DNA of 42,898 bases from an uncultured Victivallales bacterium (GTDB taxonomy: Bacteria; Verrucomicrobiota; Lentisphaeria; Victivallales; UBA1829): the NCBI GenBank assembly GCA_944391115.1, contig CALXSJ010000025.1, positions 1-42,898 of the forward strand, written 5' to 3'. Positions 11,647-37,188 of this stretch are shown in pieces. Within the stretch, counting starts at the first letter, position 1; every line of letters starts with the position of its first letter. The notes under the pieces were generated by a model that was not told the DNA's origin, searched no databases, and saw nothing but the letters and a program-made list of their open reading frames with translations. The position numbers and the translations under genes are program-made.

Positions 11647-11665
11647 ATGAAGGAGGCGAAACCCT

Positions 11666-13277: not shown

Positions 13278-13499
13278 TCACGGAAACGGCTGTGCCAGCA
13301 TCCACATCAGACGGCGGAACCAGTCGACGGCGTAATTGCCGAATAATCCGAAATTATTCTCTTCCGAAACGGAAACCCCGGCCATTTCGATCAGACTGGT
13401 TCCGGCATCCCCCATGGCCAGAGAGCCCCCCAGAAGAACAATCAGAACGACAATGACATATTCCATCAACATGGAACCCTGTTCCTTTGAAAGATTCAT
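13278..13499 (-). CDS. Flp/Tad-type pilin 3
   Basis: A 73-residue prepilin at the 3' end of the Tad operon. The leader MNLSKEQG is cut after Gly; the mature protein starts SMLMEY with Glu at +5 and Tyr at +6, the Flp hallmark, followed by a hydrophobic helix (VIVVLIVLLGGSLAM). The C-terminal half is longer than in classical Flp pilins and ends in WFRRLMWMLAQPFP. It follows the lipoprotein gene by 18 nt. It is one of three pilins in the operon and may be the substrate that goes with the second ATPase nearby. Confidence 0.8.
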   Translation of the reverse strand: MNLSKEQGSMLMEYVIVVLIVLLGGSLAMGDAGTSLIEMAGVSVSEENNFGLFGNYAVDWFRRLMWMLAQPFP

Positions 13500-13517
13500 G
13501 GGATCCGCCTTGTCCTG

Positions 13518-14408
13518 CTATTTTATCGCCTGTTCAAAGGAAGAACGGAAATCAGGATGTTTTTTCAGCTCGCTTTCCTCCAGCTGGAACGCAAGGTTTT
13601 CAAAGGACAGCTCTTCCAGTTTCCTGACGCAGGCAGCAAGTTCAGTTCCGCTTGGCGCGGAATAATATTTCATTATGGATTTCCGGGCTGTGGCAAGGCG
13701 TGTCAAAAGACGCCGGCTCATCGGAACACTTTTGCATTTCACGTTGTTCTTTTCCAAATAAAAGTCAAGGTGACGGGCGTCAATGCTTTTGGATTTGTCC
13801 AGATCAATGGACAGAAGAATGATTTCCGCCTGCCCGAGTTGATCGGTGCAGACTCTCCAGAAGGTATCGCTCCCGGGATTTACGACCAGCCATTCGTTGA
13901 CAAGCGGCTTCCGTTTGCTTTCCGTATAGGAATCCACGAGCGTCCGCTCCACTTTCGCCGGGATTTCCTCGGCACGGCTTTTCGATTCAAAGTTCATGCA
14001 GGGATTCATGCCGTCAAACGCATATTTTGTAACCTCGCCAGACCATTCGAACGGAAACATTCCGAAGGAAAATACACTGATAACGTGGGACATAATCGCA
14101 ATCGGGAAAAGTCCCAGACCGGCCAGAAATTCATAAGACTCCCGCCATCCCTCATACGGTGTATAGAGGGAAGAGATCTTGCGAACCTGATAAACCTCCA
14201 CCTTAATATTTTCCATCTGTTCCAAAGTCACTTTGAAAGAAGATGAATCGGGGATTTCCTTGTCCGTCGTCAAAATGTACTGGTTGCCGAGGACGGTTCT
14301 TGAGTTTTCCGGAGTTTCCTTGGTAATATCTTCCAGATGATTCGCACATCCGGCGAAAAAAAAGGAAACAAACGCTGCCGTTCCCGCCGATAAGATTTTT
14401 CTGTTCAT
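13518..14408 (-). CDS. Tad-operon lipoprotein of unknown function
   Basis: A 296-residue protein with a lipoprotein signal peptide: a basic start (MNRKILSAGTAAFVSFFFAGC) and lipobox FAGC, so the mature protein would be anchored at Cys. One extra hydrophobic stretch is seen at FLAGLGLFPIAIMSHVISVFSFG, about residues 115-137, so it may be embedded in the membrane as well. No known domain is recognised. I chose the ATG at 14408 because GGGAGTG is upstream and a signal peptide follows at once; the ATG at 14426 is an alternative. It lies between the second CpaF-type ATPase and pilin 3. It could act as a pilotin or an assembly factor for that sub-machine; this is only positional inference. Confidence 0.65.
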   Translation of the reverse strand: MNRKILSAGTAAFVSFFFAGCANHLEDITKETPENSRTVLGNQYILTTDKEIPDSSSFKVTLEQMENIKVEVYQVRKISSLYTPYEGWRESYEFLAGLGLFPIAIMSHVISVFSFGMFPFEWSGEVTKYAFDGMNPCMNFESKSRAEEIPAKVERTLVDSYTESKRKPLVNEWLVVNPGSDTFWRVCTDQLGQAEIILLSIDLDKSKSIDARHLDFYLEKNNVKCKSVPMSRRLLTRLATARKSIMKYYSAPSGTELAACVRKLEELSFENLAFQLEESELKKHPDFRSSFEQAIK

Positions 14409-14430
14409 GTTTGGATTCACTCCCATGTTG

Positions 14431-15453
14431 TTATTTCTGCATTTTTTCGAATTTTCCAATGAATTTTCCGGACTCGTCCGTTCCCGTTTGCATCCACTCC
14501 CATTCACTTTCCAGGCGATATTCCCCGTGATCCAAGGGAAGAACTTTGCTGATTCCAAGCACCTTGCGGCTGCCGTCCTCCAGACGTCCGGTATGGACGA
14601 CATAATTCAGGGCGGCGACAACCTGGCTGCGGATCGCATGCAGCGGGAGATCAAATCCGGCATACATGACACAGGTTTCCAGACGCAGCAGACTGTCGTA
14701 TGCGTTGTTTGCGTGAATCGTGGACATCGATCCGGCATGTCCGGTATTCATCGCCTGAAGCAAATCCAAAGCCTCGCCTCCGCGGATTTCGCCGAGGATG
14801 ATGCGGTCCGGACGCAAGCGCAGCGCCGAATGCAGCAAGTCGCGAAATGTCACTTCTCCTTTTCCGTCCTTGTCCGGACGGCGGGTTTCAAAGGGCACGA
14901 GATGCGGTTGGCGGAGTTGAAGTTCGCAGGAATCCTCTATCGTCAAAATGCGGTCAACCGGATCGATGTATGAACTCAGCACATTCAGAATGGATGTTTT
15001 CCCTGACGAGGTCGCGCCGCAGATCAGAATGTTCATTCGCTTCTGCACGAGGATTTTGAGATAGTCCAGCATTTCCTGCGAAATACTCTGCCATTTCACC
15101 AGACTTTCCGGGGAAAGGGAATCGGTCCGGAATTTGCGGATGGAAACAACCGTCCCACAACGGGAAAGCGGCGGAATCACAACGTGGACGCGGGAGCCGT
15201 CCGGCAGCCGTGCATCAAGACGGGGATATTCGTCATTCAGCACCCGTCCGACTGATTTTGCGATATTGTTCGCCGCGGCTTGAAGCGCCGGTTCGCTGGG
15301 GAATCTCGATTCGATTTTGACAACCTTGCCGCCTTTTTCAATGTAAATATTTTCCGGGCCGTTAATCATAATTTCGCTGACGGCCGGATCGTCAAGACAG
15401 GGCTTGACCGGTTCCAGAAACATGGCCAAATAAGAAATTCCATTCATATCCAT
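14431..15453 (-). CDS. Second CpaF/TadA-type pilus ATPase
   Basis: A 340-residue secretion ATPase. The N-terminal part (DDPAVSEIMINGPENIYIE) and DARLPDGSRVHVVIPPLS are typical of CpaF. Walker A is GATSSGKT (146-153), the Asp box is RILTIEDSCELQL, Walker B is RPDRIILGEIRGGEALDLLQ, and the His box is GSMSTIHAN. It is a complete motor but, unlike the CpaF at 22934, has no FHA domain and a short N-terminus. It lies far from TadB/TadC, with a lipoprotein and pilin 3 after it. Two CpaF genes in one Tad operon suggest separate extension and retraction motors, or a motor for a second pilin. Confidence 0.9.
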   Translation of the reverse strand: MDMNGISYLAMFLEPVKPCLDDPAVSEIMINGPENIYIEKGGKVVKIESRFPSEPALQAAANNIAKSVGRVLNDEYPRLDARLPDGSRVHVVIPPLSRCGTVVSIRKFRTDSLSPESLVKWQSISQEMLDYLKILVQKRMNILICGATSSGKTSILNVLSSYIDPVDRILTIEDSCELQLRQPHLVPFETRRPDKDGKGEVTFRDLLHSALRLRPDRIILGEIRGGEALDLLQAMNTGHAGSMSTIHANNAYDSLLRLETCVMYAGFDLPLHAIRSQVVAALNYVVHTGRLEDGSRKVLGISKVLPLDHGEYRLESEWEWMQTGTDESGKFIGKFEKMQK

Positions 15454-15460
15454 CTGCTCC

Positions 15461-16345
15461 TTATGTCAAAAGGCATTTCAATTTTTGTGTTTCAGCATCA
15501 GCTTCCCCAGCGAAAAAACGGCTTCCAATGCGTTTGGCATGACTGAAATCGAGCAGGACGGGAGAACCGTCGTCCCGCAATCCGAGATTCGACCACCGAA
15601 TGTCGCCATGCAGAACAAAACGCCGATGCAAATAGTCAAGGGCATGAAAAAAACCGGATGTCTTTCCCCGTTTAATCCCCTTTCCGGTATGACACCATTC
15701 CATGATGCAGTACGGGGAGTCACCGGCATCACAGGCGAACACTTCCGGCAGATTCGGATGGGCCATATGCCGCAGCCATTCAAGCTCGTTCCGGAAACGG
15801 GATTCGCCTCCGGAAACGGGTATTTTCACAATACTGTTCCTGCCATGGAAATCTGCGAGATACACCTGCGACGTACTTCCTTTTGCAATAAAACATTTCA
15901 GCTTCGCGCCGTGAATCACAGCCGGCGCCGTCAACAGTCGTTCATCAGCCGGCATTCCGCAAAAAACATTTCTGACGAATTCCGGAAGACCGGAACCTTG
16001 CCGGAGCAAAATGCTGGATTTCCAGTCGCGAAGCAAGGCGTCAAAAACATCGGCTTTGATCCCCGGGCGGAGATTTGCAAGCAATTCCGTCAACCGGACC
16101 GCCGCCGCCCATCGCCAGTCGGAAATGTCCGCTTTTCCGCTGAAAACGGCGGTACGCCGGTCCGGGCGGAACAGCAGGAGAAAATCCAGCGGGCAAAGAC
16201 CGGACAATTCCACCTGCACAGGATGAATCCGGAGCCATTCCAGTTCCCTTGCGATTTGCGCGGCATACGGCTCAAATCCGGTTTCCGGCGATTCAAAGCC
16301 GCGGCAAAGCGCCGGGAGAAGATCATTCAGTCGGCGGAGTAACAT
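15461..16345 (-). CDS. Divergent protein-kinase-like protein
   Basis: A 294-residue protein. Residues about 1-145 are an unrecognised helical domain. The C-terminal half is kinase-like: GSTSQVYLADFHGRNSIVKI has the Gly-rich loop and the Lys; LHGDIRWSNLGL is the catalytic loop with D and N of HxDxxxxN; LLDFSHAKRI replaces DFG with DFS. The activation segment and C-lobe are very short, as in RIO/Bud32-like or lipopolysaccharide-kinase-like enzymes. The start at 16345 is set by GGAGGAG just upstream and overlaps the phosphatase gene by 23 nt. Lying between PP2C and the second ATPase, it likely belongs to the phospho-switch, either as a second kinase or as an atypical regulator. Confidence 0.75.
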   Translation of the reverse strand: MLLRRLNDLLPALCRGFESPETGFEPYAAQIARELEWLRIHPVQVELSGLCPLDFLLLFRPDRRTAVFSGKADISDWRWAAAVRLTELLANLRPGIKADVFDALLRDWKSSILLRQGSGLPEFVRNVFCGMPADERLLTAPAVIHGAKLKCFIAKGSTSQVYLADFHGRNSIVKIPVSGGESRFRNELEWLRHMAHPNLPEVFACDAGDSPYCIMEWCHTGKGIKRGKTSGFFHALDYLHRRFVLHGDIRWSNLGLRDDGSPVLLDFSHAKRIGSRFFAGEADAETQKLKCLLT

Positions 16346-17147
16346 CGTTCTCCTCCTCTTCATCCGGGGGCGCCGGCGTTTCGGCTTCTTCCCGGCTGAC
16401 GTCGGGAGTGATTTCCGGAAGTTTCCCAAAGGCGATCACAATAGCGGTCGCGTTATCGATTCCTCCATGTTCCAGGGAAGCGGCAATCAACTCCTCCGCT
16501 TTTTGCTCCGGGGTGGAAGCAGAGCTTAAAATCCGCTGTATTTCCGGTTCGGCAAGCTGGCGGGAAACGCCGTCCGAACAGAGTAAATAAAGATCGTTGT
16601 CCATCAGTTCCAGATTCTGCGTTTCGAGAAAAAATTTCGGCCCGCACCCGGCGACGTTGGTCAGAACGCCCTGCAGATGCCTGGCCAGTTTCTCCTCCGC
16701 AACTCCCATCGCAGAGGCGATGGTATGGTCCGTGGTAAGCAGCTCCAGGGCTTTTTTTCTCAGGCGGTAACAACGGCTGTCCCCGGCGGAGAACAGCATT
16801 GCGTGAGCCGGCTGAAACGGAGACAGAACAATTCCGACGATGGTGGCGCCCATGCCGCGCATACAGTTCGCCGCCGCGAATTTCCGGATTTCCGCGTTGG
16901 CCTGATAGGAAAACTTCACCATTGCAGAAAGATTTTTCAATGGGGAAACCGCGGCTTTCGCGAGGGTCTGAACGACGATGGAACTTGCCCGTTCTCCGCC
17001 GTCACCGCCTCCCATTCCGTCGGAAACGACGAACAAACCGCTGGAAGACAGACAACGGTAGGAATCCTGATTTTCCCTGCGGGCCAGACCGGTGTCGGTA
17101 CATGCTCCGGCGTGGAAATATTTTTTTTGGAACAGCAGAAACGGCAT
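16323..17147 (-). CDS. PP2C-family protein phosphatase
   Basis: A 274-residue Ser/Thr phosphatase of the PppA/Stp type. Signatures: TDTGLARRENQDSY (18-30) with the metal-binding Asp, LFVVSDGMGGGDGGERAS (38-55), LLCSDGVSRQL and GGIDNATAIVIAFG near the end. These give the full set of Mn/Mg ligands. The C-terminus is a short acidic tail (PPDEEEENDVTPPTE). No membrane segment, so it acts in the cytoplasm. It begins 6 nt after the double-FHA gene. With the kinase at 26930 and the FHA proteins it completes a reversible Thr-phosphorylation switch. Confidence 0.93.
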   Translation of the reverse strand: MPFLLFQKKYFHAGACTDTGLARRENQDSYRCLSSSGLFVVSDGMGGGDGGERASSIVVQTLAKAAVSPLKNLSAMVKFSYQANAEIRKFAAANCMRGMGATIVGIVLSPFQPAHAMLFSAGDSRCYRLRKKALELLTTDHTIASAMGVAEEKLARHLQGVLTNVAGCGPKFFLETQNLELMDNDLYLLCSDGVSRQLAEPEIQRILSSASTPEQKAEELIAASLEHGGIDNATAIVIAFGKLPEITPDVSREEAETPAPPDEEEENDVTPPTE

Positions 17148-17153
17148 TGCTTG

Positions 17154-19532
17154 TCACCTTGGATATTTCTTGAAACCCCACATCCGGCGCACCACGGGAT
17201 CACCCGGAATGCCTTGCCGAAGAATGGAATCTCTGATTTCAATTTTCTGTTCATCCGACGCGGCATTGTAGTCCCGTCCCAGTTTAATCAGGGGAAGGCG
17301 CATTTTCTTGAAATCGCGGGTGAAGGATTCCACTTCCGTCTCCTTGATTTCCCCGCCCATCAGGAAAATGGCGATGGCTTTGCTCAGGATGCATTCCCGC
17401 AAAGACCCGCGGTTCGACGTGAAATATTTCGTCGCCAGTTCGTTTCGGAATTTAAGCACATTTCCGGTATTTTCATACAGACGCTGAAATGCGCCGGAAT
17501 GCAGCCACTCGTTGTGTTTCTGATCGGCGAATGTGCGGAAAGTTTGAATCGCGCCGAGCAGATTTTTGAATTTTACGATTTCAGGACGGAACTGAAACTC
17601 CGAATACACGGATTGGTCATAGGGGGCCGGAAGCGCATAAATGAAATCAAAGAAGCCTTCAATCCCGAGAACCCGGTCGTATTCTCCCGCCGGCTCCGTG
17701 CGAAGGCGGGAAGGCATTTTCCGCTCGAAAGCGTCACAGGCAAACACTTTATTCATGACCTCCTGATTCTGAAATATCGATACGCACTCCGGCATGACGG
17801 TATCCTTGTTCAAGCCGGCCTCGTTCAAATTGCGGATCAGCGGACGCAGATTGGCCGCGACAGCGAGGATGAGGTCGAACTGCCGCTCCTGCTGTTTTCT
17901 GAGCGTGGCGATATTCGCGTTGACGACGCATTGCTCCAAAGTCGGAAGATCCAGACGGATGGTGTCCAGTTTTTCAAATTCCAGCTGCCGGACCGCAATC
18001 ATGGCTCGCTTGATCTGCTTCCCGGTCCGCTGCAGCATCGCCAGCGGAACCATGCAGCTTTCGATTCGGATGCGGATGTTCGGCTCGGCATGCTGCTTCA
18101 ACTCGTCCAGATCGCCCAGAACCATGGCGAGATTGTTCGATTCCGACTCGATTCTTGCAAGAATGGCCGCCAGCTTTTCCAGATACAGCAGGTTGGCTCC
18201 GATCTGTTTGCGGAGAGTCACCGAATCCGTCAGAAGTTTTTTCAAATAGGCGGGAGTTTTTTGAGAAAAAAGTTGTTCGATTCCGCCGATGATCTTCACC
18301 GACTGTTTCAAATCGGCCAGATTTTTCTGGTTCCGGTCATCACGCATTGAGGTCTCCGCCAGAAGATACGCATCCAGCAATTTTTTTACGGTAAACGCTT
18401 CCTTGCGCATTTCCGGCGCGGTGGTGTCATTCCATCCCCACACATTGGGATCGGCGTCGGTAATCATGCCGAGAATGTGAGAGCCTTCGATCCAGTTGCC
18501 GGAATTCAGCGCGGACTTTGCCTTTCTCCAGCTGGCAGAAATCTTTTCCCATACGGCAATGGACCGGTCAAGTTCGTTGTAGGCAATTTCATTCGCGTCC
18601 GCGCCGCGGCGCGAGCGCGATTCCTTCAGGAATTCACGCGCCTGATCGAAACGTTCGGCCGCCGCCTCGCGCCTGGCGTAATTCAGATACGTGTCGGAAG
18701 ACGATTTAATCCCCATCCAGAGCCAGTTCAATGCCAAGACGATGAAAATGGTCGCGCCCACAATGCCGAGGCTGTACCATATTCTGATTCTGGAATGCTC
18801 GATGGTTCCGTCCACGAATTTGAAATCGACAAAGGAAATGCTGATTACATCGTCATCAACCAGCAGACGCTCCGTACCGGCGGAGAGTTTTGTGCCGTTC
18901 ACAAACGTTCCGTTTTTGCTGCCGAGGTCACGAAGCCAGCAGCCGTCCGCTTTGCTGTTGAACTCGACATGACGCTGTGAAACAAGCTGTTCGTCGATCA
19001 CGAGATCGCAGCCGGGCGCGGAACCGGCCACCACTCTGGGGTTGTCGAGTCTGACCGACTGCCCTTTTTTGTCTGTGTTGAGATACACCAGCTCATGCCG
19101 CGCGGTATGGGACGCCTTGAACTTCTCCACATAAAGGGTGCAGCTGCCAATGGCGAACTGATCGTCCGGAACAAGATTTTTTTCCTGAATTTTCCGCGCT
19201 TTGTAGAAAATTCCATTCCGGCTTCCGGTATCACGCAGACACAGACGCCCCTTGCGCATCAGAATCACGGCATGATGTCCGCTGGCGACATTGTCTTCTT
19301 TGGGAATCACCCATGTGCAGTCCGCGCTCCGACCGATGGTGATGGTGTCGCCAGGCGCAAGATCGGATACTTCATACAGTATCCTGTGATTGAATTCAAG
19401 CCGGAGATTCAAGCGTTCCGGAGCCGATTTCCTCCAGGAAAGACCGCGCACCACGGTATTGTGAAAATTGCTGAAGGTCTCGCGGGAGAACATTCTCCTG
19501 AATATACCGCGTCTCGAATTGCCTACTCCCAT
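17154..19532 (-). CDS. Membrane protein with two N-terminal FHA domains
   Basis: A 792-residue protein. FHA 1 covers residues about 62-135: IGRSADC, SGHHAV and SRNGIFY supply the phosphothreonine-binding Arg, Ser and Asn. FHA 2 covers about 166-238: SQRHVEF and SKNGTFVNG are intact, but the GR of the first loop is replaced by GS (VVAGSAPGCD), so it may no longer bind phosphothreonine. A transmembrane helix follows at 252-274 (WYSLGIVGATIFIVLALNWL). The remaining 500 residues are largely helical, probably periplasmic, and unrecognised. CAGGAGGAACGT directly precedes the ATG at 19532, which overlaps the previous gene by 10 nt. The layout suggests a sensor or scaffold that links cytoplasmic phosphorylation to the envelope part of the machine. 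Confidence 0.85.
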   Translation of the reverse strand: MGVGNSRRGIFRRMFSRETFSNFHNTVVRGLSWRKSAPERLNLRLEFNHRILYEVSDLAPGDTITIGRSADCTWVIPKEDNVASGHHAVILMRKGRLCLRDTGSRNGIFYKARKIQEKNLVPDDQFAIGSCTLYVEKFKASHTARHELVYLNTDKKGQSVRLDNPRVVAGSAPGCDLVIDEQLVSQRHVEFNSKADGCWLRDLGSKNGTFVNGTKLSAGTERLLVDDDVISISFVDFKFVDGTIEHSRIRIWYSLGIVGATIFIVLALNWLWMGIKSSSDTYLNYARREAAAERFDQAREFLKESRSRRGADANEIAYNELDRSIAVWEKISASWRKAKSALNSGNWIEGSHILGMITDADPNVWGWNDTTAPEMRKEAFTVKKLLDAYLLAETSMRDDRNQKNLADLKQSVKIIGGIEQLFSQKTPAYLKKLLTDSVTLRKQIGANLLYLEKLAAILARIESESNNLAMVLGDLDELKQHAEPNIRIRIESCMVPLAMLQRTGKQIKRAMIAVRQLEFEKLDTIRLDLPTLEQCVVNANIATLRKQQERQFDLILAVAANLRPLIRNLNEAGLNKDTVMPECVSIFQNQEVMNKVFACDAFERKMPSRLRTEPAGEYDRVLGIEGFFDFIYALPAPYDQSVYSEFQFRPEIVKFKNLLGAIQTFRTFADQKHNEWLHSGAFQRLYENTGNVLKFRNELATKYFTSNRGSLRECILSKAIAIFLMGGEIKETEVESFTRDFKKMRLPLIKLGRDYNAASDEQKIEIRDSILRQGIPGDPVVRRMWGFKKYPR

Positions 19533-21109
19533 ACGTTCCTCCTGAGTGTGAAATAGCGCAGATCGTCGGGAGAGGAGAAAACGGTTTTGCATAATTCCAG
19601 AACTGCACTCTCCTGCCGGCGGTCATTCTTGAGGCCAGCCTCGAAATATTGGATTTTCTGGCTGTTGTACCAGATGGTCTGCATGGAACGAAGACGCCGC
19701 AGCTGCGTAAGCGCGTTCCGCATCAGCGCCTTGTTGCGGGTTTTGACACTTTCCATCAGGGTGTTCTGAAGCAGGAGATAAGTTCTCGCCCATTCAAAGG
19801 GCGCCTGTTTTGCCAGGTGCCTGGAAACTTCGTCCAGCATGACGGAGGTATCGGCTCCCCCTTTATAATCGGGATTGCCTTCCCAATGCCCCTGCAAATA
19901 CTGTGTGGAAAATTTCAGGAACGGTGTGTTGGAAATGAAATTCTGTCCGCGGGCGCGTTCCGAAACCGGAGTTTCCGCCATTCTCATGTATGCCCGGTCT
20001 CCGGTGCGGAAAAACAGGATCTCCCCATACCATGATTCGTTGTCCGCCTCGCGCCGGTATTCGACACTCAAGCAGGGCAAACCGTTTTCTGAACCGATGA
20101 AAAAGACATCGGAAATCTGCGCCAGATTCCATCTTTTGCTGTCTTTCTGCAAATCGCCCAGCATAGAGGAAAACACCTGTTTCCGCTCCTTGTACAGAAA
20201 GTCGATGGATTGTTTTTGAATGAAAATGATCCGAAGCGGAACCGAGGCGTCTTTTCCGAAGCGCGTGAAGACGGTGATTCGTCCCGGTTTCTGTTCCACT
20301 CTGGTCTTTCCCCTGATGTTCGGATATGCCAGCGAAAACGCGCCGGCCTTGTGTCCGCCGTTGCCGGGATCGGCAAACGCTCCAAGTGCATAGCCGTCCG
20401 ATCCGACCGGCCATGACAGATTCGCCTCCTTGGGCGATGACTTCAGGGAATAAAGCAGCACCAGCACGGCAATTGCGCCGACGCCTCCGAGAACATATTT
20501 GAAAAGTTTGCCTGTGGACCGCTTGCGATCCGCGTTGCGCAGAAGATTCATTTCCTCCAAACTGGCAAGACGGGTGCGCATCACATCCGTCTGCAGTACA
20601 CCTTCCTCATTCCCGGCGGGTGAAGCCTGCGGCGGCGGAAGCGCCTTGTTTTCCCCGTCTTCCCCCGGAATACGCGTTTTGTTCCGGTCGTCGGGAACAG
20701 AACCCATGTCCCCGGCGACCTGCCGCGGTGTGATCTCCGTTTTATCCGGATCATCGGCAGGCGCAGACGCAGCGGGAATGACGGTTTTCGTTTCTCCGTC
20801 TTCGGAAGCCTGACTGTCCGCCGGAATGTTCAAGCGGATTTCCAGTTTTTTCCCAAGACAAAGCACATCGCCGTCATTCATTTTTCTTCGGCTGTCCAGA
20901 GGTTTGCCCTGGAAGACGGTGCCGTGGGAACTCAGGTTTTCCGCAAAAACCCCATCCGCCGTCACATCAAGCTTCAGATGTTTTCCGGAAACGTCCGGTT
21001 CAGTAAGATGAATGTCCGCGGAATGGGAACGCCCCGCGATGTGCTCGCCCGGAGACAATTCGCCTTCCTGCGTTTTTTCATGATCGACATATATGAGATA
21101 TCTTATCAT
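19523..21109 (-). CDS. Membrane protein with N-terminal FHA domain
   Basis: A 528-residue protein. The FHA domain spans residues about 22-95: IAGRSHSADIHL, VSGKHLKL and NLSSHGTVFQGK keep the core Arg, Ser and His. Residues 100-195 are a Thr/Pro-rich linker with several K-T-x-I/V motifs (TKTVIP, DKTEITP, NKTRIP), which could themselves be phosphorylated. A transmembrane helix lies at about 203-221 (FKYVLGGVGAIAVLVLLYSL). The C-terminal 300 residues are an unrecognised periplasmic domain. It follows TadC by 12 nt. Like its neighbour it joins an FHA reader to an envelope domain. Confidence 0.85.
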   Translation of the reverse strand: MIRYLIYVDHEKTQEGELSPGEHIAGRSHSADIHLTEPDVSGKHLKLDVTADGVFAENLSSHGTVFQGKPLDSRRKMNDGDVLCLGKKLEIRLNIPADSQASEDGETKTVIPAASAPADDPDKTEITPRQVAGDMGSVPDDRNKTRIPGEDGENKALPPPQASPAGNEEGVLQTDVMRTRLASLEEMNLLRNADRKRSTGKLFKYVLGGVGAIAVLVLLYSLKSSPKEANLSWPVGSDGYALGAFADPGNGGHKAGAFSLAYPNIRGKTRVEQKPGRITVFTRFGKDASVPLRIIFIQKQSIDFLYKERKQVFSSMLGDLQKDSKRWNLAQISDVFFIGSENGLPCLSVEYRREADNESWYGEILFFRTGDRAYMRMAETPVSERARGQNFISNTPFLKFSTQYLQGHWEGNPDYKGGADTSVMLDEVSRHLAKQAPFEWARTYLLLQNTLMESVKTRNKALMRNALTQLRRLRSMQTIWYNSQKIQYFEAGLKNDRRQESAVLELCKTVFSSPDDLRYFTLRRNVWE

Positions 21110-21121
21110 ACGATTTCTCCC

Positions 21122-22919: not shown

Positions 22920-22933
22920 CTATCATCTCCTCC

Positions 22934-24592: not shown

Positions 24593-24612
24593 TCCTTCAC
24601 CTCTTTTCCAAG

Positions 24613-26124: not shown

Positions 26125-26145
26125 GGCGAACTCCTTGTGGTTGAT

Positions 26146-26895: not shown

Positions 26896-26929
26896 TTACC
26901 CTTGTTCCTTATGTTTAGGTTTTTCATTG

Positions 26930-30118: not shown

Positions 30119-30471
30119 GACTTCTTTTCTTCCTTCAGCGTTCCCCAGGCAAAGCCGGTAAGAGAGACATCCTCCCGCCAGAACTGCACCAGAATCCGCT
30201 CCTTGCCTTTGCCCCACACTTCGAGTGATTTCCATTGAATCCGGTCATATTCCAGTGTCTTCAGCCGGATCCAGCCCTGTTTCCGCAAAGACAGATCAAA
30301 ATTCCTTTTTGCCGCGGCATAGGAAAGCGGCATGGTTCCGCATTGCCTCCACGTTTTCCCGTCGGCGTTTTCCCCGGCGGAAAGCTGTGATTCCGCCGGA
30401 AGCCGGATATCCGCCGCAATGACGCACCCCGCAAGACAAAACGCGGATAAAAATATCGAAAAACGTTTCAT
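30115..30471 (-). CDS. Small secreted protein of the Tad operon
   Basis: A 118-residue protein. MKRFSIFLSAFCLAGCVIAA is a signal peptide with either a lipobox (LAGC) or a cut after the AA that follows. The mature part (SLRKQGWIRLKTLEYDRIQW and then WGKGKERILVQFWREDVSLTGFAWG) has a beta-rich look resembling small DUF4390-like or SnoaL-free proteins, but I recognise no family. The start at 30471 gives a clean signal peptide; the ATGs at 30486 and 30477 overlap the previous gene. Its stop overlaps the kinase start by ATGA, so the two are translationally coupled. It may be an envelope partner of the kinase. Confidence 0.65.
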   Translation of the reverse strand: MKRFSIFLSAFCLAGCVIAADIRLPAESQLSAGENADGKTWRQCGTMPLSYAAAKRNFDLSLRKQGWIRLKTLEYDRIQWKSLEVWGKGKERILVQFWREDVSLTGFAWGTLKEEKKS

Positions 30472-30473
30472 GC

Positions 30474-31148
30474 TCATTTGCTCCATGCCTCGAACTGCGG
30501 GTTTCGGATGTATTCCGCGCCGTCGCTGACGGAAAGCGCATTGGGGGTGTCGCCGGGCACACCCTCACGGTCGATGAAGGCGGTGCGGTATTCCACATAC
30601 CACAGCGGTCCTCCCTGCGCGAGCTCGCGCCCCGGTTTCTCCCGGACATCGTAATCCGCGCGCATCAGCACACTGTGAGTGTCCGGTCCCTCGATCTCGC
30701 GCGCCCGGAATGAAAGCTTGTCCCACAATTCTTTGTCCGGCGACGAACCGATGTCGGCGAACAGCTGAATCGCCCCTTTCCGGCATCCCACCGCCCAGAC
30801 CGGCAGAACCATCTTGAGTTCCGCCGCTCCGCGCACCACGGAATACCAGTCCGCCTTCGTCTTGCCGGAGGAAAACGATTCGAGTTTTGTTCCCTCCGCG
30901 AATTCACCATCCGGGAAAAAAGCTTTTGACGCATCCTTTTTCACCGCCTCATCGTCCTTGTCCCCGTATCGGCAGCCGGAGAGCCAAACCGCGAAACGGT
31001 CGGCGGCGGCAAGGCGGTTGCGCCCCAGTTCCAGATCGCCGAGCAGATAGATCCCGCTGAAAAAAGCGATATACAACGGAATCACGAGGATCGTTTCCAT
31101 CAGAACCGATCCCCGCCGTTCCATCCTCATTTTTTTCAGCGTTTCCAT
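30474..31148 (-). CDS. tadE: TadE-like pseudopilin 2
   Basis: A 224-residue minor pilin. The leader METLKKMRMERRG is followed by SVLMETILVIPLYIAFFSGI, with the cleavage Gly and Glu at +5 as in TadE. The rest is a globular domain that is unusually large for TadE. The start codon shares one base with the stop of pilin 2 (TGATG), showing tight coupling. Minor pilins of this class are thought to initiate or cap the fibre. Confidence 0.8.
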   Translation of the reverse strand: METLKKMRMERRGSVLMETILVIPLYIAFFSGIYLLGDLELGRNRLAAADRFAVWLSGCRYGDKDDEAVKKDASKAFFPDGEFAEGTKLESFSSGKTKADWYSVVRGAAELKMVLPVWAVGCRKGAIQLFADIGSSPDKELWDKLSFRAREIEGPDTHSVLMRADYDVREKPGRELAQGGPLWYVEYRTAFIDREGVPGDTPNALSVSDGAEYIRNPQFEAWSK

Positions 31149-31438
31149 CAGTTTTTATTCAATTTTTCCCCATGCATGTAGTCGGAATACGCCCCTCCGA
31201 CTACAGCATCATTTTCTTCCGCCTCTTTGAAGCGCTCCCGAGCCTCGGAAAGCTCTTCCGGAGAATAGCCCGACATCGCATAAGAGACCAGTGCGAACTG
31301 TCGTGTCACCGCCCGGGAAAATGTGATGACCATCATCATCGCTCCGGCAGCCAGCATGATGCAGAGCAAGACGTATTCCATGGTGACGGCGCCGTGTTCA
31401 TTCACCAGAAAAGAGCGCAGTTTCTTACAAAAACGCAT
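31148..31438 (-). CDS. Flp/Tad-type pilin 2
   Basis: A 96-residue prepilin. The leader ends in NEHG; the mature protein begins AVTMEYVLLCIMLAAGAMMM, with Glu at +5 and Tyr at +6. A charged C-terminal part of about 50 residues follows. The start at 31438 has AAGGA 5 nt upstream; a longer frame from 31486 would overlap the upstream gene and add an untypical leader. It sits directly before the second TadE gene. Confidence 0.8.
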   Translation of the reverse strand: MRFCKKLRSFLVNEHGAVTMEYVLLCIMLAAGAMMMVITFSRAVTRQFALVSYAMSGYSPEELSEARERFKEAEENDAVVGGAYSDYMHGEKLNKN

Positions 31439-31461
31439 GTTGTCCTTACTCACGCTGAAGC

Positions 31462-32046
31462 TTATTTTTCGAATTGTTTTTTCCATTGTCTTCCCGTAGA
31501 GCCGCCAATATCCAGCATCAGTCTGCCGAACTCGTTGATGCTGACTCCGGCCTGTTTGCTTTTCTGGCGTTCGTCCGAAGACATGTTCTGGATCGCGTTG
31601 AACGTGCTTTTGCCCAGTTCAAACAGAGCTGTCCGCAAATCGTTTTCATCCGGGATATGCCCGCCGCCCCATGACAGCACCGCATTGGCTGCGTTGGCCG
31701 CGATCTTGTATTCTTTGGAAATGTATTTTTCAAAACGCCGGGCAAAATTGGCGGCGAAAACTCTCTGGTCTGTGGTCGTTTCCATTCCGAACTCAATTAT
31801 GTCCCAGCAGAGGCTGGCCGCAAGTTCGGCTTTTTCAAGCTTATTGGCAATATCCTTGAGGGCCTTGGCTCCTGCCGGATCCATCTTCGCCAGGGCTTTT
31901 TCCGCCCCGCTCTGAATTTTCTCCTTCATTTTCATCTGGAGATATTCCGCCGCGGCCTTCTTGTCCTGGTCAAAGTTGCTGGCGGAAAGGAAGAGTGGAG
32001 ACATGGCAAACACACCCAGCATAATAAAAGCAAAGAACTTTTTCAT
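31462..32046 (-). CDS. Secreted helical protein of unknown function in the Tad operon
   Basis: A 194-residue protein with a signal peptide (MKKFFAFIMLGVFAMSPLFLSA). The mature part is rich in Ala, Lys and Glu and predicted mainly helical, with a glycine-rich turn WGGGHIP near residue 127. No family is recognised and there are no cysteines suitable for anchoring. It lies between another unknown secreted protein and pilin 2, with gaps of about 25 nt. Periplasmic chaperone or minor fibre component are guesses from position only. Confidence 0.65.
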   Translation of the reverse strand: MKKFFAFIMLGVFAMSPLFLSASNFDQDKKAAAEYLQMKMKEKIQSGAEKALAKMDPAGAKALKDIANKLEKAELAASLCWDIIEFGMETTTDQRVFAANFARRFEKYISKEYKIAANAANAVLSWGGGHIPDENDLRTALFELGKSTFNAIQNMSSDERQKSKQAGVSINEFGRLMLDIGGSTGRQWKKQFEK

Positions 32047-32072
32047 TTTTCAATCTCCTTTCATATTGTTTT

Positions 32073-33077
32073 TTATTTCGCTGAAGGATACAGTTCCGAA
32101 CAAAATTCGGCGGAGAGAGGCAGCATTGAAAAAAGCGGTTTTTCCTTGCCGCCGGCCGGGATCCTGACCAGAATGAGCGCTTCCGGAAGCAGGCGGGATG
32201 AAAAACCGAAAAGCGTTGCTTTCCTGTTCTTGAAATAAAGCGCCGGCATCATGGAGGCCTTCACCTGCGGAGGAAGCGAGGCATAATATTTGACGAATAC
32301 ATCGCCCTGTTCCGGAATCGTGAAGAAATCCTTCATTTTTGCCATGTCGCCTTTCCAGAGAACCTGAGCTGTCTCCCCGGCGGCAAGAGCATCGGCATTC
32401 GCTTCGGGAAGCGTGAATTTCTTCAGCATTGCAAGTCTCATTCCCGCATTGAAGGCCACCTTCTGACAATTGTCGCTGCTGTTGAACCGACGATATTTCC
32501 GGATGGAGTTCTCCGCTGCACCACTGGGGAAATCCCGTTTGAAGACAGAAGATACCCTGGCCGTGTTTTTCAGGAGAACTTCATCAAAATTCCCTTTCGT
32601 CGGAGCGATGGCCTGTGGATATTCCTTGTCTTTCAGCGTCTCGCCGCGAAAATCCGTCCCCGTGAGGAAGGCAAAATCTTCAATCCTGGGCAATGTTTCC
32701 GAATTGTCCGTTTGAATGAGCAGCACAGTGTCCTGAAGCGGATTGAACAACGCGAACACCCCGGTCATGTCGTTCTGCGGGCCGGTCAGGAGCAGCGCGC
32801 CGGAAAAGAAATCGGACATGATTGCGGACGCCCCGTCGCTCTGCACCAGACTGCCGTAAACGTCATTCCACTTTTTCAAGGCGCCCGGAGTCATCCAGTC
32901 CTTCAGGGCGTTTCCCGGCGTCGCCGCGGCAATAATGCGTGTTGCCGCAATCTTTTCAATTTTTGTCATCTCCGTTTTTACCGCGGGAGTTTTAGGCGCC
33001 GCGTTGTTCTCCGCAAACGCGCAGACGGAAAGAACCGTTGCTCCCAGTGCCGACATCAGCAGTTTTGTTGTTTTCAT
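32073..33077 (-). CDS. Secreted protein of unknown function in the Tad operon
   Basis: A 334-residue protein with a signal peptide (MKTTKLLMSALGATVLSVCAFA). The mature part alternates helical and beta segments, e.g. GVFALFNPLQDTVLLIQTD and TLFGFSSRLLPEALILVRIP. I recognise no family. It follows the TadG-like gene by 21 nt. Its size and secretion suggest a periplasmic or surface component of the machine, perhaps specific to this lineage. Confidence 0.65.
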   Translation of the reverse strand: MKTTKLLMSALGATVLSVCAFAENNAAPKTPAVKTEMTKIEKIAATRIIAAATPGNALKDWMTPGALKKWNDVYGSLVQSDGASAIMSDFFSGALLLTGPQNDMTGVFALFNPLQDTVLLIQTDNSETLPRIEDFAFLTGTDFRGETLKDKEYPQAIAPTKGNFDEVLLKNTARVSSVFKRDFPSGAAENSIRKYRRFNSSDNCQKVAFNAGMRLAMLKKFTLPEANADALAAGETAQVLWKGDMAKMKDFFTIPEQGDVFVKYYASLPPQVKASMMPALYFKNRKATLFGFSSRLLPEALILVRIPAGGKEKPLFSMLPLSAEFCSELYPSAK

Positions 33078-33098
33078 GATTTTCCTTCCGTTGTTGGG

Positions 33099-34568
33099 TC
33101 AATGATGCAAGTGTTCTCGCGCACTCGAAAACTCTATATTTGAATAAGGACTGGAATAGTCCCTGCCGACAAACGATCTGGATGCGCCGAGCTTTTTCGC
33201 AAGATCTTCCAGCAAACCTGCCCCGGCGGTCGATTTTTTGTCGCGCAGCGGCAGAAACAGTGCATCCCAGTCCGCCACGCACAGATTGTCTTTGTCCTCA
33301 ATCTTTCCGGTATTGCGGTATTCGCCCTCTTTCCAGTCGGAAAGACGGTAGCCGGCCCGTGCACCGGAAACGCCCCACATTGTCTGGCTGCCGCCCCCGA
33401 CATTGAACGCCGAATAGATTCCGGATTGCTCCCCGCCGCCGAAAATAAAAGCGAACGGGTTGTTCAAAGGACGCGACACGCCTACGACAATCGCGCCGTC
33501 CGGCTGAAAGAAATTGGACTTCAGCACCATCGGAGACGCCTTTTCTCCAGTGTAATACGCGTCGCGCCCCTGTTCGCCGGTAACGGGCGGAGCCGCATGA
33601 GCGGAGAACCCGGCATAATGACACACGGCGGCATGCCACCAGATTTGATTGTAAGTGAACCATCTGGCGGTAAGAACATTCCCGGTCTGTCGATAATTCC
33701 GCTGGAAGCCTTCGCCGTCTGCCAGAGTCAGCCATGTATTCGCTCCAGCGCCGAACGTCTCCACGGGCGAACCGGAAAAATCCCCGAATCCGAGAAAACG
33801 GCTTTCGTCATCCGATTGGAGCGCTTCAAAATAACGGGCTGCATCCTGCAGCTCGTAAAGAGCCCATTGAATATTCCGTTTTTCCCGGGTTTTCCTGTCG
33901 TTTTCCGTCAGGGACACATTGGCGTTTACGGCAAATTCCACCGCATGTTCAATCCTTGTTTTCATGCCGGAAATCAATTCCTTTTCCGCCTGATTCATGG
34001 ATGCGATACAGCTCCGCAGAGAATTCAGGAGCGGCACCGGATTCCGTGCGGCTTCTTCCGCAAGTCCTCCCAGAATTGCCGGAATTCCCGCATTCTGCGA
34101 TTCATTCAGGCGGATTAACTGATGAACAATCCCTTCGCCAGCCCCCCCCGCGGCATCGACGCCGACCCGCCAGTTGACCGCCTCGATCTTGTGCCAGCAG
34201 CAGGCACAGAGCTGCTGGGCGGCGGCAGTCACGGCGCAGTCATGCCGCCAGCGCTCCGTCACTTTGAGAAGCCAGGCTCCGACAATGTGATCCATCTGAC
34301 GCCGCGTCATCATCACGTAATTCCACGCCATCGCTTTGTTGATGACGGCGACGCGGCTGATCGTGTCCGCCTGAACCAGCGCCCCGGAATACGCGGCGGC
34401 ATCGGCGGCGTTTTGCAGTTCGATCCTCTGCCGCACGGTTTCCCCGCAGGCGTAAATGGCGAAGCCGAACAGAAAAATGATCAGCGAAACCGTGACGGTG
34501 AAGGCAAAAGCAACCCCGCTTTCATCTCGCCCGAGTTCCATCATTTTCTGTTTCAGAACTGCCGTCAT
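33099..34568 (-). CDS. tadG: TadG-like pilus assembly protein
   Basis: A 489-residue protein. After MELGRDESG comes a single hydrophobic helix (VAFAFTVTVSLIIFLFGFAIYA), then the helical stretch QRIELQNAADAAAYSGALVQA, the hallmark of TadG/Tad-like proteins. The pilin-type Glu at +5 is missing (Phe instead), so it may be a membrane anchor rather than a fibre subunit. The large C-terminal domain (about 400 residues) is Gly/Asn-rich toward the end and unrecognised; there is no clear vWA MIDAS motif. It overlaps the TadE gene by ATGA. Confidence 0.8.
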   Translation of the reverse strand: MTAVLKQKMMELGRDESGVAFAFTVTVSLIIFLFGFAIYACGETVRQRIELQNAADAAAYSGALVQADTISRVAVINKAMAWNYVMMTRRQMDHIVGAWLLKVTERWRHDCAVTAAAQQLCACCWHKIEAVNWRVGVDAAGGAGEGIVHQLIRLNESQNAGIPAILGGLAEEAARNPVPLLNSLRSCIASMNQAEKELISGMKTRIEHAVEFAVNANVSLTENDRKTREKRNIQWALYELQDAARYFEALQSDDESRFLGFGDFSGSPVETFGAGANTWLTLADGEGFQRNYRQTGNVLTARWFTYNQIWWHAAVCHYAGFSAHAAPPVTGEQGRDAYYTGEKASPMVLKSNFFQPDGAIVVGVSRPLNNPFAFIFGGGEQSGIYSAFNVGGGSQTMWGVSGARAGYRLSDWKEGEYRNTGKIEDKDNLCVADWDALFLPLRDKKSTAGAGLLEDLAKKLGASRSFVGRDYSSPYSNIEFSSAREHLHH

Positions 34569-35107
34569 TTTTCCGTCTTCACAATATAAGGTTTGGGGAT
34601 GCTCATCCGTTCGTGGAAGACCAGGTGCGGTCCGGTGAATTCGTCGCCGAATTTCTCCGTCGAAATATGATCTCCCGCCTCGCCCCGCGTGTAATCAGCG
34701 GGATTGAAGCGACAGGCGATAATCTGCGCCGCAAGCGGCATGACCAGAGGAAACGCAAACTTCAATTCCACTTCGTTGTTCCAGCCGTTCTTCGTCACGC
34801 GGAACTGCAGAAGACGATCCCTGACGCTCTTTGCTTCCGGATCGGGCATCATCACACCGTCGCGAAGGGAATCGGGAGAAGCGACCAGCCAGCAGAGAAT
34901 CCGCTGCGCCGCCTTTTTCGCCTCTTCCTCCTCCTTGTCCGGCGCAAGCGGCAATGTCGAACGGGCCGCGGCATACGCAGCATAACTCACAATCTGCCGC
35001 GCCACATGGATATGCGCCATTTGAAGCGCTCCAAAAATCAGCGCCACCAGAAGCGGCATGACGATCACGGTTTCCATCAGCATGGAGCCAGCCTCCTTGT
35101 TTTTCAT
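34565..35107 (-). CDS. tadE: TadE-like pseudopilin 1
   Basis: A 180-residue minor pilin. The short leader MKNKEAG is followed by SMLMETVIVMPLLVALIFGA, with the cleavage Gly and Glu at +5, then QIVSYAAYAAARSTL, typical of TadE. The start at 35107 makes an ATGA overlap with the prepilin peptidase stop; a longer frame reading into that gene was rejected. Its mature N-terminus (SMLME) is the same as that of pilin 3. Confidence 0.85.
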   Translation of the reverse strand: MKNKEAGSMLMETVIVMPLLVALIFGALQMAHIHVARQIVSYAAYAAARSTLPLAPDKEEEEAKKAAQRILCWLVASPDSLRDGVMMPDPEAKSVRDRLLQFRVTKNGWNNEVELKFAFPLVMPLAAQIIACRFNPADYTRGEAGDHISTEKFGDEFTGPHLVFHERMSIPKPYIVKTEK

Positions 35108-35652
35108 CTGGCATACTCCCCGACGAGCCGCAGCAGCAGTGTCGTCCATATTCCGGCGGAAATTGCCACGCCGAACGGAATACGGACCTTTTCGCATTCC
35201 TTGTCCGGCAGATTCTTCCGCCCTTCCGCCCGGTCGTAACGCCAGTCACAGGCACAGCGGAAAAAATGCCTGAGCCTCGCGGCATCCACCCTGCCAGTAA
35301 TCTGCATCACAACCCCGAGCATGAGCCCGAACACGGAGGTCAGCAGCAGCATCGGAAACACGGCCGGATACCCGACCAGCAATCCGCCGGCAAAAAGATA
35401 CTTCAAATCTCCCGCACCCGCCGCCCTTACTAAAAACGGAATCAGCAGCAGCGCGCCCGCGATAACACCGCCAAGAAGACCGTTCAGCAGATACGGAAGA
35501 CCGCCCCAGCCGAGCAGCCAGGCCAGAATCACAGCACTTCCGCCGAGAGTAAGACGATTCGGCAGCGTCCGTGTCTTCCAATCGTATCTCCCCAATACGA
35601 TCAGCCACGGAGTCGCCGCTGCAATCACATACACCGTCGGAGAAATGTGCAT
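35104..35652 (-). CDS. Prepilin peptidase, TadV/CpaA type
   Basis: A 182-residue membrane aspartyl protease. The two catalytic aspartates are D24 in GRYDWKTRTLPN and D82 in GAGDLK, the GxGDxK motif of type IV prepilin peptidases. There are about four to five membrane helices. The methylase domain of longer PilD enzymes is absent, as usual for TadV. It would cut the three Flp pilins and the two TadE proteins of this operon after their conserved Gly. It follows pilin 1 by 15 nt. Confidence 0.92.
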   Translation of the reverse strand: MHISPTVYVIAAATPWLIVLGRYDWKTRTLPNRLTLGGSAVILAWLLGWGGLPYLLNGLLGGVIAGALLLIPFLVRAAGAGDLKYLFAGGLLVGYPAVFPMLLLTSVFGLMLGVVMQITGRVDAARLRHFFRCACDWRYDRAEGRKNLPDKECEKVRIPFGVAISAGIWTTLLLRLVGEYAR

Positions 35653-35667
35653 TCCGGCTTCGATCTC

Positions 35668-35970
35668 TTATTTATGCATGCTGTCGTGAAATTCAGACGC
35701 CTTGGACGCATCTTCATTCTGTTCCTGCTGAGTCTCGTCCAATGCCGTTTTGGCGCCGGAGTGGTCTGCGCTTGCGCCTTTGGCCGCGACATCGAACATG
35801 CCGACAATGGTCTTGCCGAACATGGCCACGGCAACCACGCAGGCCGCCGCGATCAGCACGGCAACAATGACGTATTCCATCATCACCGCGCCGCGTTCTT
35901 CGCCCAGCAGTTTGCAGATTTGACGTCCGAGCCAGCTTTTCTTCATCCGGTTGATTCTTGTTGTCTTCAT
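35668..35970 (-). CDS. flp: Flp/Tad-type pilin 1
   Basis: A 100-residue prepilin. The leader ends in GEERG; the mature protein begins AVMMEYVIVAVLIAAACVVA with Glu at +5 and Tyr at +6. A tail of about 45 charged residues follows, longer than classical Flp (about 55 residues total). I chose the ATG at 35970, which has AAAGGA 8 nt upstream; ATG at 35949 is also possible. As the first structural gene, and the one next to the peptidase, it is the likely major subunit. Confidence 0.85.
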   Translation of the reverse strand: MKTTRINRMKKSWLGRQICKLLGEERGAVMMEYVIVAVLIAAACVVAVAMFGKTIVGMFDVAAKGASADHSGAKTALDETQQEQNEDASKASEFHDSMHK

Positions 35971-36012
35971 TCTCCTTGTCCTTTCCATTGGTGAGGATGT
36001 TTTTCAAAGACA

Positions 36013-36255
36013 TCATTGTTCTTGCTTCAAAACCTCTTTTTCATTCAGAAAATCCTGAATATTGGAAAAAGAGGAATTCATTTTGACAAAACCTTCGCGA
36101 TATGCCCCGATAAATGCCTCGTCATCATGATACTGACGCACTCTTTTCGAGCATTTCCGGCACAGCGTCATATGAAATCTGACCGACAGGCGCTCAAAGT
36201 CCGGAAGCTGTTTTTTTACAAACTGATCGATTGTCGCATCCGTTAAATGTTTCAT
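36013..36255 (-). CDS. Small ZAS-type anti-sigma-like protein
   Basis: An 80-residue soluble protein. FHMTLCRKC contains H-x3-C-x2-C, the zinc-binding ZAS signature of anti-sigma factors, in the usual N-terminal third. There is no membrane helix, so it would act in the cytoplasm, as redox-sensing RsrA/ChrR-type anti-sigmas do. AGGAGGT lies 6 nt before the ATG at 36255, whose A is the last base of the sigma-factor stop (TGATG). The pairing with the sigma gene supports the role; direct evidence is limited to the motif. Confidence 0.75.
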   Translation of the reverse strand: MKHLTDATIDQFVKKQLPDFERLSVRFHMTLCRKCSKRVRQYHDDEAFIGAYREGFVKMNSSFSNIQDFLNEKEVLKQEQ

Positions 36256-36833
36256 CATTCCACCTCCTCGCCTGAAATCTCCGCGATATTCATGCGGAGA
36301 AAATCAATGACCTTTTTCCGGTAATTGTAAACACTCGGAACGGAAATCCCAAGAGCGGACGCAACGTCGGCGGCTTTTTTGCCTTTCATTTCCAAAAGCT
36401 CAAATGCCTGGAACGCTTTCTCCGGCATTTGCTCGGCGGCATTTTTCATGGACAGCCAGAACAGATGAATTTTCCATTCCCTGTTCCATTCCTCTTCGAA
36501 CGAATCGTCAAGTTCTTTCTCCTGAATCTCCAGGGCCTTATTCATCTCCGCCCGCAGTTTTTTATGACGGAAGATTGAAGAAATGCAGTTCTTCATAATG
36601 ATGCCGAGGTAGGAGCGGAATTTTCCTTTTTGGGGGTCATAGACAAAATTCGGATTCACCCGGAAAAAAGACAATAGCACGATTTGCTCCAATTCCGGAT
36701 AATCATCCGGAGTCAGGCCATGTTGCTTTGCGCAGTGATAAATCAAGGGTCTGTATGTGTCACGGAACAAACGCCACGCGGATTCATCACCCGCGCGGAC
36801 TTTTTCAAGCAGTTCCGAATTGGTTGTGTACAT
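36255..36833 (-). CDS. ECF-type RNA polymerase sigma factor
   Basis: A 192-residue sigma70-family protein of ECF size. Region 2 includes LFRDTYRPLIYHCAK and the segment DPQKGKFRSYLGIIMKNCI (region 2.3-2.4). Region 4 is the C-terminal helix-turn-helix AFELLEMKGKKAADVASALG followed by ISVPSVYNYRKKVIDFLR. It is the first gene of the Tad run and is coupled to the ZAS protein, so it probably drives this operon and perhaps itself. No clear -10/-35 pair was found upstream; an AGAGAAA/TTTCTCT inverted repeat lies in the leader. Confidence 0.88.
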   Translation of the reverse strand: MYTTNSELLEKVRAGDESAWRLFRDTYRPLIYHCAKQHGLTPDDYPELEQIVLLSFFRVNPNFVYDPQKGKFRSYLGIIMKNCISSIFRHKKLRAEMNKALEIQEKELDDSFEEEWNREWKIHLFWLSMKNAAEQMPEKAFQAFELLEMKGKKAADVASALGISVPSVYNYRKKVIDFLRMNIAEISGEEVE

Positions 36834-36981: not shown

Positions 36982-37188
36982 TCATGCGCCCTTCTGCATG
37001 CAAAATTCCCACGAGATATGCCGAGTTGGTCTGGATATGGTTGTAAATGGTGGATTGGCGGCTATGAACGTGCCGGCAATACTCCTTATGCGACCGCCAC
37101 GGGCATTCTCCACTTTCATGGCAAATTTCCCAGCGGCTTCAATCGGAGCATGTCTTTTATTTTCTCTGTTCCTGCAGGTGGTCTTCAT
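36982..37188 (-). pseudogene. Possible remnant of a prepilin-type leader gene
   Basis: A 68-codon frame with AGGAGAG 6 nt before its ATG. The protein begins MKTTCRNRENKRHAPIEAAG and continues to AANPPFTTISRPTRH. The basic leader ending in AANPPFT resembles the N-terminus of the many type II pseudopilins of Lentisphaerota, where FTLIELLVVIAIIA would follow; here the hydrophobic helix is absent. I read it as a decayed 5' end. This rests on memory of the family, so confidence is low. Confidence 0.3.

Follow-up and report, generated by a model that had tools for sequence, protein, structure and literature searches.

Organization of the operon

The window analysed here is one whole contig of 42,898 nucleotides (CALXSJ010000025.1) from a metagenome-assembled genome of an uncultured Victivallales bacterium (GCA_944391115.1). 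On its minus strand, 24 genes follow one another in a single run from 36833 to 13278, and their content is that of an operon of gut and rumen Victivallales which is predicted to encode a Tad pilus machine as well as a kinase, a phosphatase and FHA readers of its own. An earlier note, made from the letters of this DNA, had described 24 minus-strand genes with short gaps and ATGA overlaps. A junction scan agreed: with the likeliest starts, 23/23 junctions fell within -25 to +34 nt, several of them being 4-nt overlaps of the ATGA type. Within the operon, promoter and terminator scans gave no more hits than expected by chance, and at its 3' end they gave none.

The Tad genes were assigned with Pfam or, for the pilins and one pseudopilin, from the sequence itself:

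35668-35988, minus strand: Flp-type prepilin 1, ERG/AVMMEYV (sequence)
35104-35652, minus strand: prepilin peptidase, CpaA/TadV (Pfam Peptidase_A24, 3e-14)
34565-35107, minus strand: TadE pseudopilin, likely start 35107 (Pfam TadE; junction scan)
33099-34568, minus strand: TadG-like protein (Pfam Tad, PF13400)
31148-31486, minus strand: Flp-type prepilin 2, EHG/AVTMEYV (sequence)
30474-31148, minus strand: second TadE-like pseudopilin (TADE2), RRG/SVLMETI (sequence; the homologue in the type B loci described below matches Pfam TadE)
26146-26895, minus strand: CpaB/RcpC (Pfam RcpC)
24613-26124, minus strand: secretin, CpaC/RcpA (Pfam Secretin)
22053-22919, minus strand: TadB platform protein (Pfam T2SSF)
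21122-22030, minus strand: TadC platform protein, likely start 22030 (Pfam T2SSF; junction scan)
13278-13499, minus strand: Flp-type prepilin 3, EQG/SMLMEYV, the last gene (sequence)

The three Flp-type pilins share a G/xxxxEY signature, read directly from the sequence. Flp prepilins, an A24 peptidase, TadE and TadG, CpaB, a secretin, CpaF, TadB and TadC are found in one locus, which by these genes amounts to a full Tad (type IVc) pilus module; the pilus is predicted from them. Pfam and direct reading agree with the earlier note on this core, and the components that it named are all present, but its list lacked the second TadE-like pseudopilin, a second CpaF without FHA and a sigma/anti-sigma-like pair. 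The core is shared with the Tad/Flp type IVc systems of Caulobacter (cpa) and Aggregatibacter (tad). Compared with classical Tad, the window adds a kinase, a PP2C, the divergent kinase KIN2, an FHA domain on the motor, two FHA membrane proteins, CpaF2 and the sigma/anti-sigma-like pair, and its operon is without TadZ or TadD.

Kinase, phosphatase and FHA genes

The putative signalling genes and the two motors are the following:

26930-30118, minus strand: transmembrane Ser/Thr kinase, likely start 30118 (Pfam Pkinase 1.7e-49, Sel1 3.4e-32)
22934-24592, minus strand: FHA-CpaF motor ATPase, class III (Pfam FHA, and T2SSE 2.2e-65)
24329-24523, minus strand: FHA domain of the motor; phosphothreonine-pocket R, S, R and H present, Asn absent
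19523-21109, minus strand: FHA1 (Pfam FHA; predicted structure model; fold search)
17154-19532, minus strand: FHA2, likely start 19532 (Pfam FHA 2.6e-31; predicted structure model)
16323-17147, minus strand: PP2C phosphatase (Pfam PP2C_2 1.6e-9)
15461-16345, minus strand: truncated divergent kinase KIN2 (partial Pkinase 3e-7, below cut-off; start from the junction scan)
14431-15453, minus strand: CpaF2, a second CpaF-type ATPase without FHA (Pfam T2SSE 6.5e-56)

A transmembrane kinase, a PP2C, a divergent kinase and three FHA-bearing proteins had been expected from the translations, as had the fusion of FHA to the motor; Pfam recovered all of them, KIN2 below its cut-off. The kinase has intact catalytic motifs (HRDIKPDN and DLG), with Sel1 (TPR-like) repeats in its predicted extracytoplasmic C-terminus, and the metal and substrate motifs of the PP2C are also intact. 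KIN2 retains the Lys, HGDIRWSN and DFS, its C-lobe being missing. CpaF2 forms a clade of its own (tree support 100/100).

Four FHA domains are spread over three operon proteins, the CpaF motor among them, in which an N-terminal FHA, a linker and a CpaF ATPase make up a single protein, as in class III CpaF. According to its model and the fold search, FHA1 consists of an FHA domain, a disordered linker (residues 98-187, predicted local confidence, pLDDT, < 50), a transmembrane helix and a PsbP/Mog1-like extracytoplasmic domain. FHA2 was modelled as two FHA domains (FHA2a and FHA2b), a transmembrane helix and an all-helical extracytoplasmic domain, and its Foldseek matches are FHA domains, GarA and OdhI included. 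No relative of FHA2 was found on viral contigs.

The preferred reading, to which a probability of about 0.6 is given, is that of a Tad pilus with its own threonine-phosphorylation switch, similar to that of the type VI secretion system (T6SS) and inherited and transferred as a unit.

Conservation of the set in related loci

Relatives of the FHA-CpaF motor were sought in 61 genomes, and 44 further loci were fetched and annotated, along with the three of the window's own genome (G000), with profiles built for this analysis. Type A loci, which are window-like, have the kinase, PP2C, FHA-CpaF, FHA1 and FHA2, and usually also CpaF2 and a lipoprotein. In type B (e.g. G000:C2), FHA-CpaF, FHA1, FHA2 and CpaF2 are accompanied by a kinase adjoining CpaF2, with no PP2C in the locus. 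Type C (e.g. G000:C7) combines FHA-CpaF, TadB/C and CpaB with a PEGA-type protein and a different FHA protein; neither kinase nor PP2C lies nearby, and neither pilin nor secretin. In two further loci, type D, the Tad system is of the classical kind, its FHA is degenerate and a kinase is lacking.

PP2C was present in 19/19 type A loci whose contig reaches far enough and the kinase in all that reach it, and the type B kinase lay beside pilus genes in 9/9. The earlier note had held that Tad relatives without the set would refute its proposal; such relatives exist in part, among the paralogous type B loci (no PP2C) and in type C (neither enzyme), whereas all type A loci with enough sequence keep both. 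An origin of the set specific to the Planctomycetota-Verrucomicrobiota-Chlamydiota (PVC) group was rejected, as Pseudomonadales Tad loci also carry kinase, PP2C and FHA; by their gene content, the set in a Tad operon is not unique to the window. One of these (L137, 15056-18431) is a Tad operon ending in a CHASE2-Ser/Thr kinase, a PP2C and a TPR protein.

Kinase and PP2C could be passengers, co-transcribed in a long operon and functionally unrelated to the pilus, and the 12 kinases of the window's genome (E <= 1e-10) fit this view. Nevertheless, both genes are retained in G009, G026, G027 and G031, where gene order and orientation differ, and several divergent loci have FHA fused to the kinase. 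The transfer of the operon as a block and the parallel sets in Pseudomonadales also speak against passengers, which we regard as very improbable. The genome has 2 PP2C. In the census of it and its close relatives, each type A locus accounted for one PP2C, and a single further copy lay elsewhere in the genome; G003, with three type A loci, has four.

Transfer of the operon between genera

When the type A loci of G000 (genus g1) and G012 (genus g10) were compared, the Tad-core proteins were 91-98% and the signalling proteins 80-90% identical, against 72% for UvrB and 53% for the type C TadB of the same genome pair. At the nucleotide level, homology to six other loci stops at 13271-13278, the 3' end of the operon; upstream, where the contig reaches, it stops at about 36990-37034, with only short patches beyond. 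Because of this high identity across genera relative to UvrB, and because homology stops at the operon ends, the operon, kinase, PP2C and FHA genes included, is concluded to move between genera as one block. As the whole set has moved in this way, pilus assembly is probably switched by phosphorylation.

Misbinning is an unlikely source of the identity, since the gene adjoining the operon on the G012 contig is common to genus g10 and absent from g1. Chance clustering of the set was also rejected, on account of the block transfer and of its recurrence in all type A relatives, given that the window's genome has no more than 12 kinases and 2 PP2C. No mobility gene was found, nor direct repeats at the operon ends that could mark an insertion site. 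In G012, cpaB (L047, 15674-16410) is split across three frames, by either a frameshift or an assembly error.

The phosphothreonine pocket of the motor

The [R/K]-S-R-H pocket of the motor FHA was found in 33/34 kinase-bearing loci and in 1/37 others, counts that amount to about two independent contrasts and not to 71 points, since in the motor tree types A and B form one clade and type C another, with the gammaproteobacterial set apart. For these counts, L215 was scored with its clade, its contig being too short to show a kinase, and L121 as without, its kinase lying at the far end of the fetched stretch, on the other strand and upstream of the first pilin. R, S, R and H were present in 26/26 type A and B motors, and the basic residue in 0/19 type C motors. 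Independently, 7/7 motors of the Pseudomonadales clade L211-L217 kept K, S, R, H and N; of 16 other FHA-CpaF loci without a local kinase or PP2C, 1 (L206) kept the tetrad. In the membrane proteins, type A FHA1 retains its pocket, which has degenerated in type B; FHA2a is canonical in type A only, and FHA2b is without the pocket Arg everywhere.

These data bear on a structural role of the FHA domains, in which FHA1 and FHA2 would be inner-membrane ring proteins of the YscD/SctD kind that bind the motor and KIN2 independently of phosphorylation, with kinase and PP2C acting on other targets. The parallel would be the binding of the EssB pseudokinase by the EssC FHA domains in the type VIIb secretion system (T7SSb), for which phospho-independent use of FHA has been reported (PMC11217815). 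FHA1 and FHA2 do match Yop-YscD_cpl weakly, FHA1 also SctD, and have the FHA-transmembrane-extracytoplasmic architecture; the loss of the FHA2b Arg everywhere and the degenerate type B FHA1 and FHA2a point in the same direction. However, the pocket is kept in the 26/26 type A and B and 7/7 gammaproteobacterial motors, most motors that have no kinase in their locus have lost it, and the machine is transferred together with a kinase and a PP2C that look active. A structural role is considered unlikely.

Candidate phospho-acceptor sites

Two candidate sites were located in the operon proteins:

29777-29995, minus strand: cytoplasmic tail of the kinase, four T(E/D)VTM(V/L)(D/Q) repeats, candidate sites of phosphorylation and of FHA docking (sequence)
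20552-20575, minus strand: FHA1 juxtamembrane motif TRxASxxE, residues 179-186 (alignment of 23 sequences)

The tail repeats number 4 in the window and 3-4 in near relatives, and distant kinases have RTMV, HTMV and TEMTM forms. 'TM' occurred 41 times in the kinase tails against 7.2 +/- 2.4 after shuffling, an excess inflated by kinship among the sequences. In FHA1, the T, R, A and E of TRxASxxE are conserved in 23/23 sequences and the S in 22/23; these T, R, A and E are among the 7/111 linker positions that are 80% conserved. When 1.59 million residues were scanned with the regular expression T[RK]hA[ST]xx[ED], 32/34 matches were FHA1 proteins. The FHA1 of G009 carries T-K-F-A-S-E seven times, and in the gammaproteobacterial FHA proteins a conserved (D/E)(R/K/H)TEV precedes the FHA. 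The G009 linker (L058, 6193-8400) has grown to about nine EMTSVT(K/N)FASE(V/I)EEG repeats, in which the conserved Thr motif has been multiplied naturally.

Comparison with known systems

The fusion of FHA to CpaF is described, in the accessible text of two reports, for class III CpaF (PMC12019362) and KilF (PMC8460266). Class III has the same architecture as the window motor; that text places it mostly in betaproteobacteria and reports no kinase or phosphatase partners (PMC12019362). The Tad-like Kil system of Myxococcus also has an FHA-fused ATPase, KilF, and several FHA proteins, and its authors speculate on a phosphorylation cascade; unlike in the window, the accessible text names no kinase or phosphatase among the Kil genes, and it describes two clusters, a single ATPase and no TadG, whereas the window has one operon and two ATPases (PMC8460266).

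The T6SS is switched by PpkA/PppA/Fha threonine phosphorylation, and its kinase, PP2C-type phosphatase and FHA protein likewise lie inside the cluster of the machine (PMC5995506). In the window, a kinase and a PP2C with intact catalytic motifs and FHA proteins also share the locus of the machine. The known pathway governs the T6SS and not a pilus, whereas the window has an FHA on its motor and two membrane FHA proteins; no Tss core families were detected among the genes scanned, so the window is said to work like the T6SS pathway, not to be one. Subtypes c-j of the type VII secretion system (T7SS) follow the same logic in another machine, with a kinase, a PPM phosphatase and FHA, the motor ATPase included; they are monoderm, and Tad genes adjoin in some subtypes but are separate (PMC11217815). 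A literature search, mostly outside subscription papers, returned no Tad operon with a kinase and a PP2C.

Proposed phosphorylation switch

In the proposed switch, the extracytoplasmic Sel1 part of the kinase may sense the envelope or the assembling secretin. The kinase would autophosphorylate the T-E-V-T-M-V-D repeats of its own cytoplasmic tail and phosphorylate the disordered linker of FHA1 at DKTxIP sites and at the juxtamembrane TRxASxxE. The phospho-threonines would be read by the first FHA of FHA2, the FHA of FHA1 and the motor-fused FHA, although which domain pairs with which site is conjectural. Docking would place the motor at the inner-membrane platform (TadB/TadC) beside FHA1/FHA2 and so allow pilus extension, so that phosphorylation would mean assembly on, and PP2C would reverse it. 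CpaF2 would perhaps serve retraction or a second assembly mode.

The earlier note had suggested a pilus gated by phosphorylation. Gene content and the conservation of the set, its block transfer, the intact catalytic motifs, the co-variation of the motor pocket with the kinase and the conserved Thr motifs all favour that suggestion, which has to be narrowed in that the set is neither found in all relatives nor specific to PVC bacteria. Several observations weigh against a phosphorylation switch. Type B loci have no local PP2C, and their FHA1 and FHA2a are degenerate; type C pilus loci have neither kinase nor PP2C locally. L137 has both enzymes, yet the pocket Ser of its motor FHA is lost, and the usual Asn is missing from the motor FHA in types A and B. 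Pocket and kinase co-vary, by the motor sequences, over about two independent evolutionary contrasts, the shuffle test of the kinase tails is subject to the kinship noted above, and the substrate of the kinase could lie elsewhere in the cell.

A more tentative reading, possible but clearly less probable, is a two-motor Tad pilus, in which kinase and PP2C would choose between FHA-CpaF and CpaF2 through FHA docking and thereby set extension and retraction, or two modes; the module would move horizontally, the association having evolved more than once (Victivallales, Pseudomonadales).

Tad pili are widespread, and what makes a single bifunctional motor change between extension and retraction is an open question. 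An operon that encodes, beside the pilus, a kinase, a phosphatase and phospho-readers, one of these on the motor, would offer a concrete, testable control mechanism. If the phosphorylation switch is real, the threonine-phosphorylation logic of T6SS and T7SS extends to pili, and the second motor is a natural test of a division of labour where one motor has been thought sufficient.

The sigma and anti-sigma-like genes and other operon genes

The remaining genes of the operon are these:

36255-36833, minus strand: ECF-like (extracytoplasmic function) sigma factor, operon gene 1 (Pfam Sigma70_r2/r4_2; NCBIfam TIGR02937 above cut-off)
36013-36258, minus strand: short zinc-finger anti-sigma-like protein, HxxxCxxC (sequence; NCBIfam antisigmaE weak, below cut-off)
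32073-33077, minus strand: exported protein D334, no family match, conserved in relatives
31462-32046, minus strand: exported protein D194, located where the operon varies most
30115-30486, minus strand: small exported protein D123, which type A and type B loci both conserve
13518-14426, minus strand: lipoprotein with lipobox FAGC (sequence), conserved in type A

The NCBIfam scan left D334, D194, TADE2, D123 and the lipoprotein without a name. The anti-sigma-like gene overlaps the sigma gene by 4 nt, and the sigma gene also comes first in close type A loci. Ser/Thr kinases act on anti-sigma factors in other systems, and kinase and PP2C might act through this pair on expression, not on motor activity. 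The position of both genes at the head of close type A operons would agree with this, but they were seen only in that group and, as the sigma gene alone, in G008, while kinase, PP2C and FHA persist in loci without them, and the FHA on the motor is left unexplained. Control of expression is held to be quite doubtful, and a switch acting on the machine is preferred.

TadZ and TadD

The earlier note was right that the operon has neither a TadZ/CpaE nor a TadD-type TPR lipoprotein, as judged by Pfam and NCBIfam scans. No MinD-like ATPase of the TadZ/CpaE type was found in the locus, and genome-wide only two weak AAA_31 matches were obtained; the MinD signature was also not found in loci of the same order without kinase or PP2C. 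For TadD, the locus has no TPR lipoprotein; it does encode a lipoprotein that has no TPR, and the kinase bears Sel1 repeats. TadZ and TadD are taken as variable Tad components, TadZ since it is missing in other loci of the order too, and their lack does not exclude Tad. The FHA proteins may take over the placement role of TadZ, a replacement left undecided because TadZ is missing too in the type D loci, whose FHA is degenerate, and also in kinase-less FHA-CpaF loci.

In the 722-805 residue CpaF open reading frames of L141, L147, L149, L150, L153, L161 and L162, an in-frame MinD/TadZ P-loop signature, KGGxGK, was seen. This suggests TadZ-CpaF fusions in Omnitrophota, Bdellovibrio, Lysobacteraceae and deltaproteobacteria, with the MinD segment occupying the place that the FHA has in the window motor.

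Flanks of the operon

To the left of the operon, a plus-strand redox gene cluster (1261-12652) encodes a carboxymuconolactone decarboxylase-like protein, alpha/beta hydrolases, an FMN reductase, Fe-S aldo-keto reductases, a polyferredoxin and a DUF362 protein; it is not common to the flanks of the operons of relatives. Upstream of the operon, a heparinase II/III-like protein is encoded at 38668-41703. A 71-bp repeat, 98.6% identical, is found at 1-71 and 41535-41605, as an interspersed repeat at the contig break, and occurs again in G003:C92, about 110 bp beyond the operon end.

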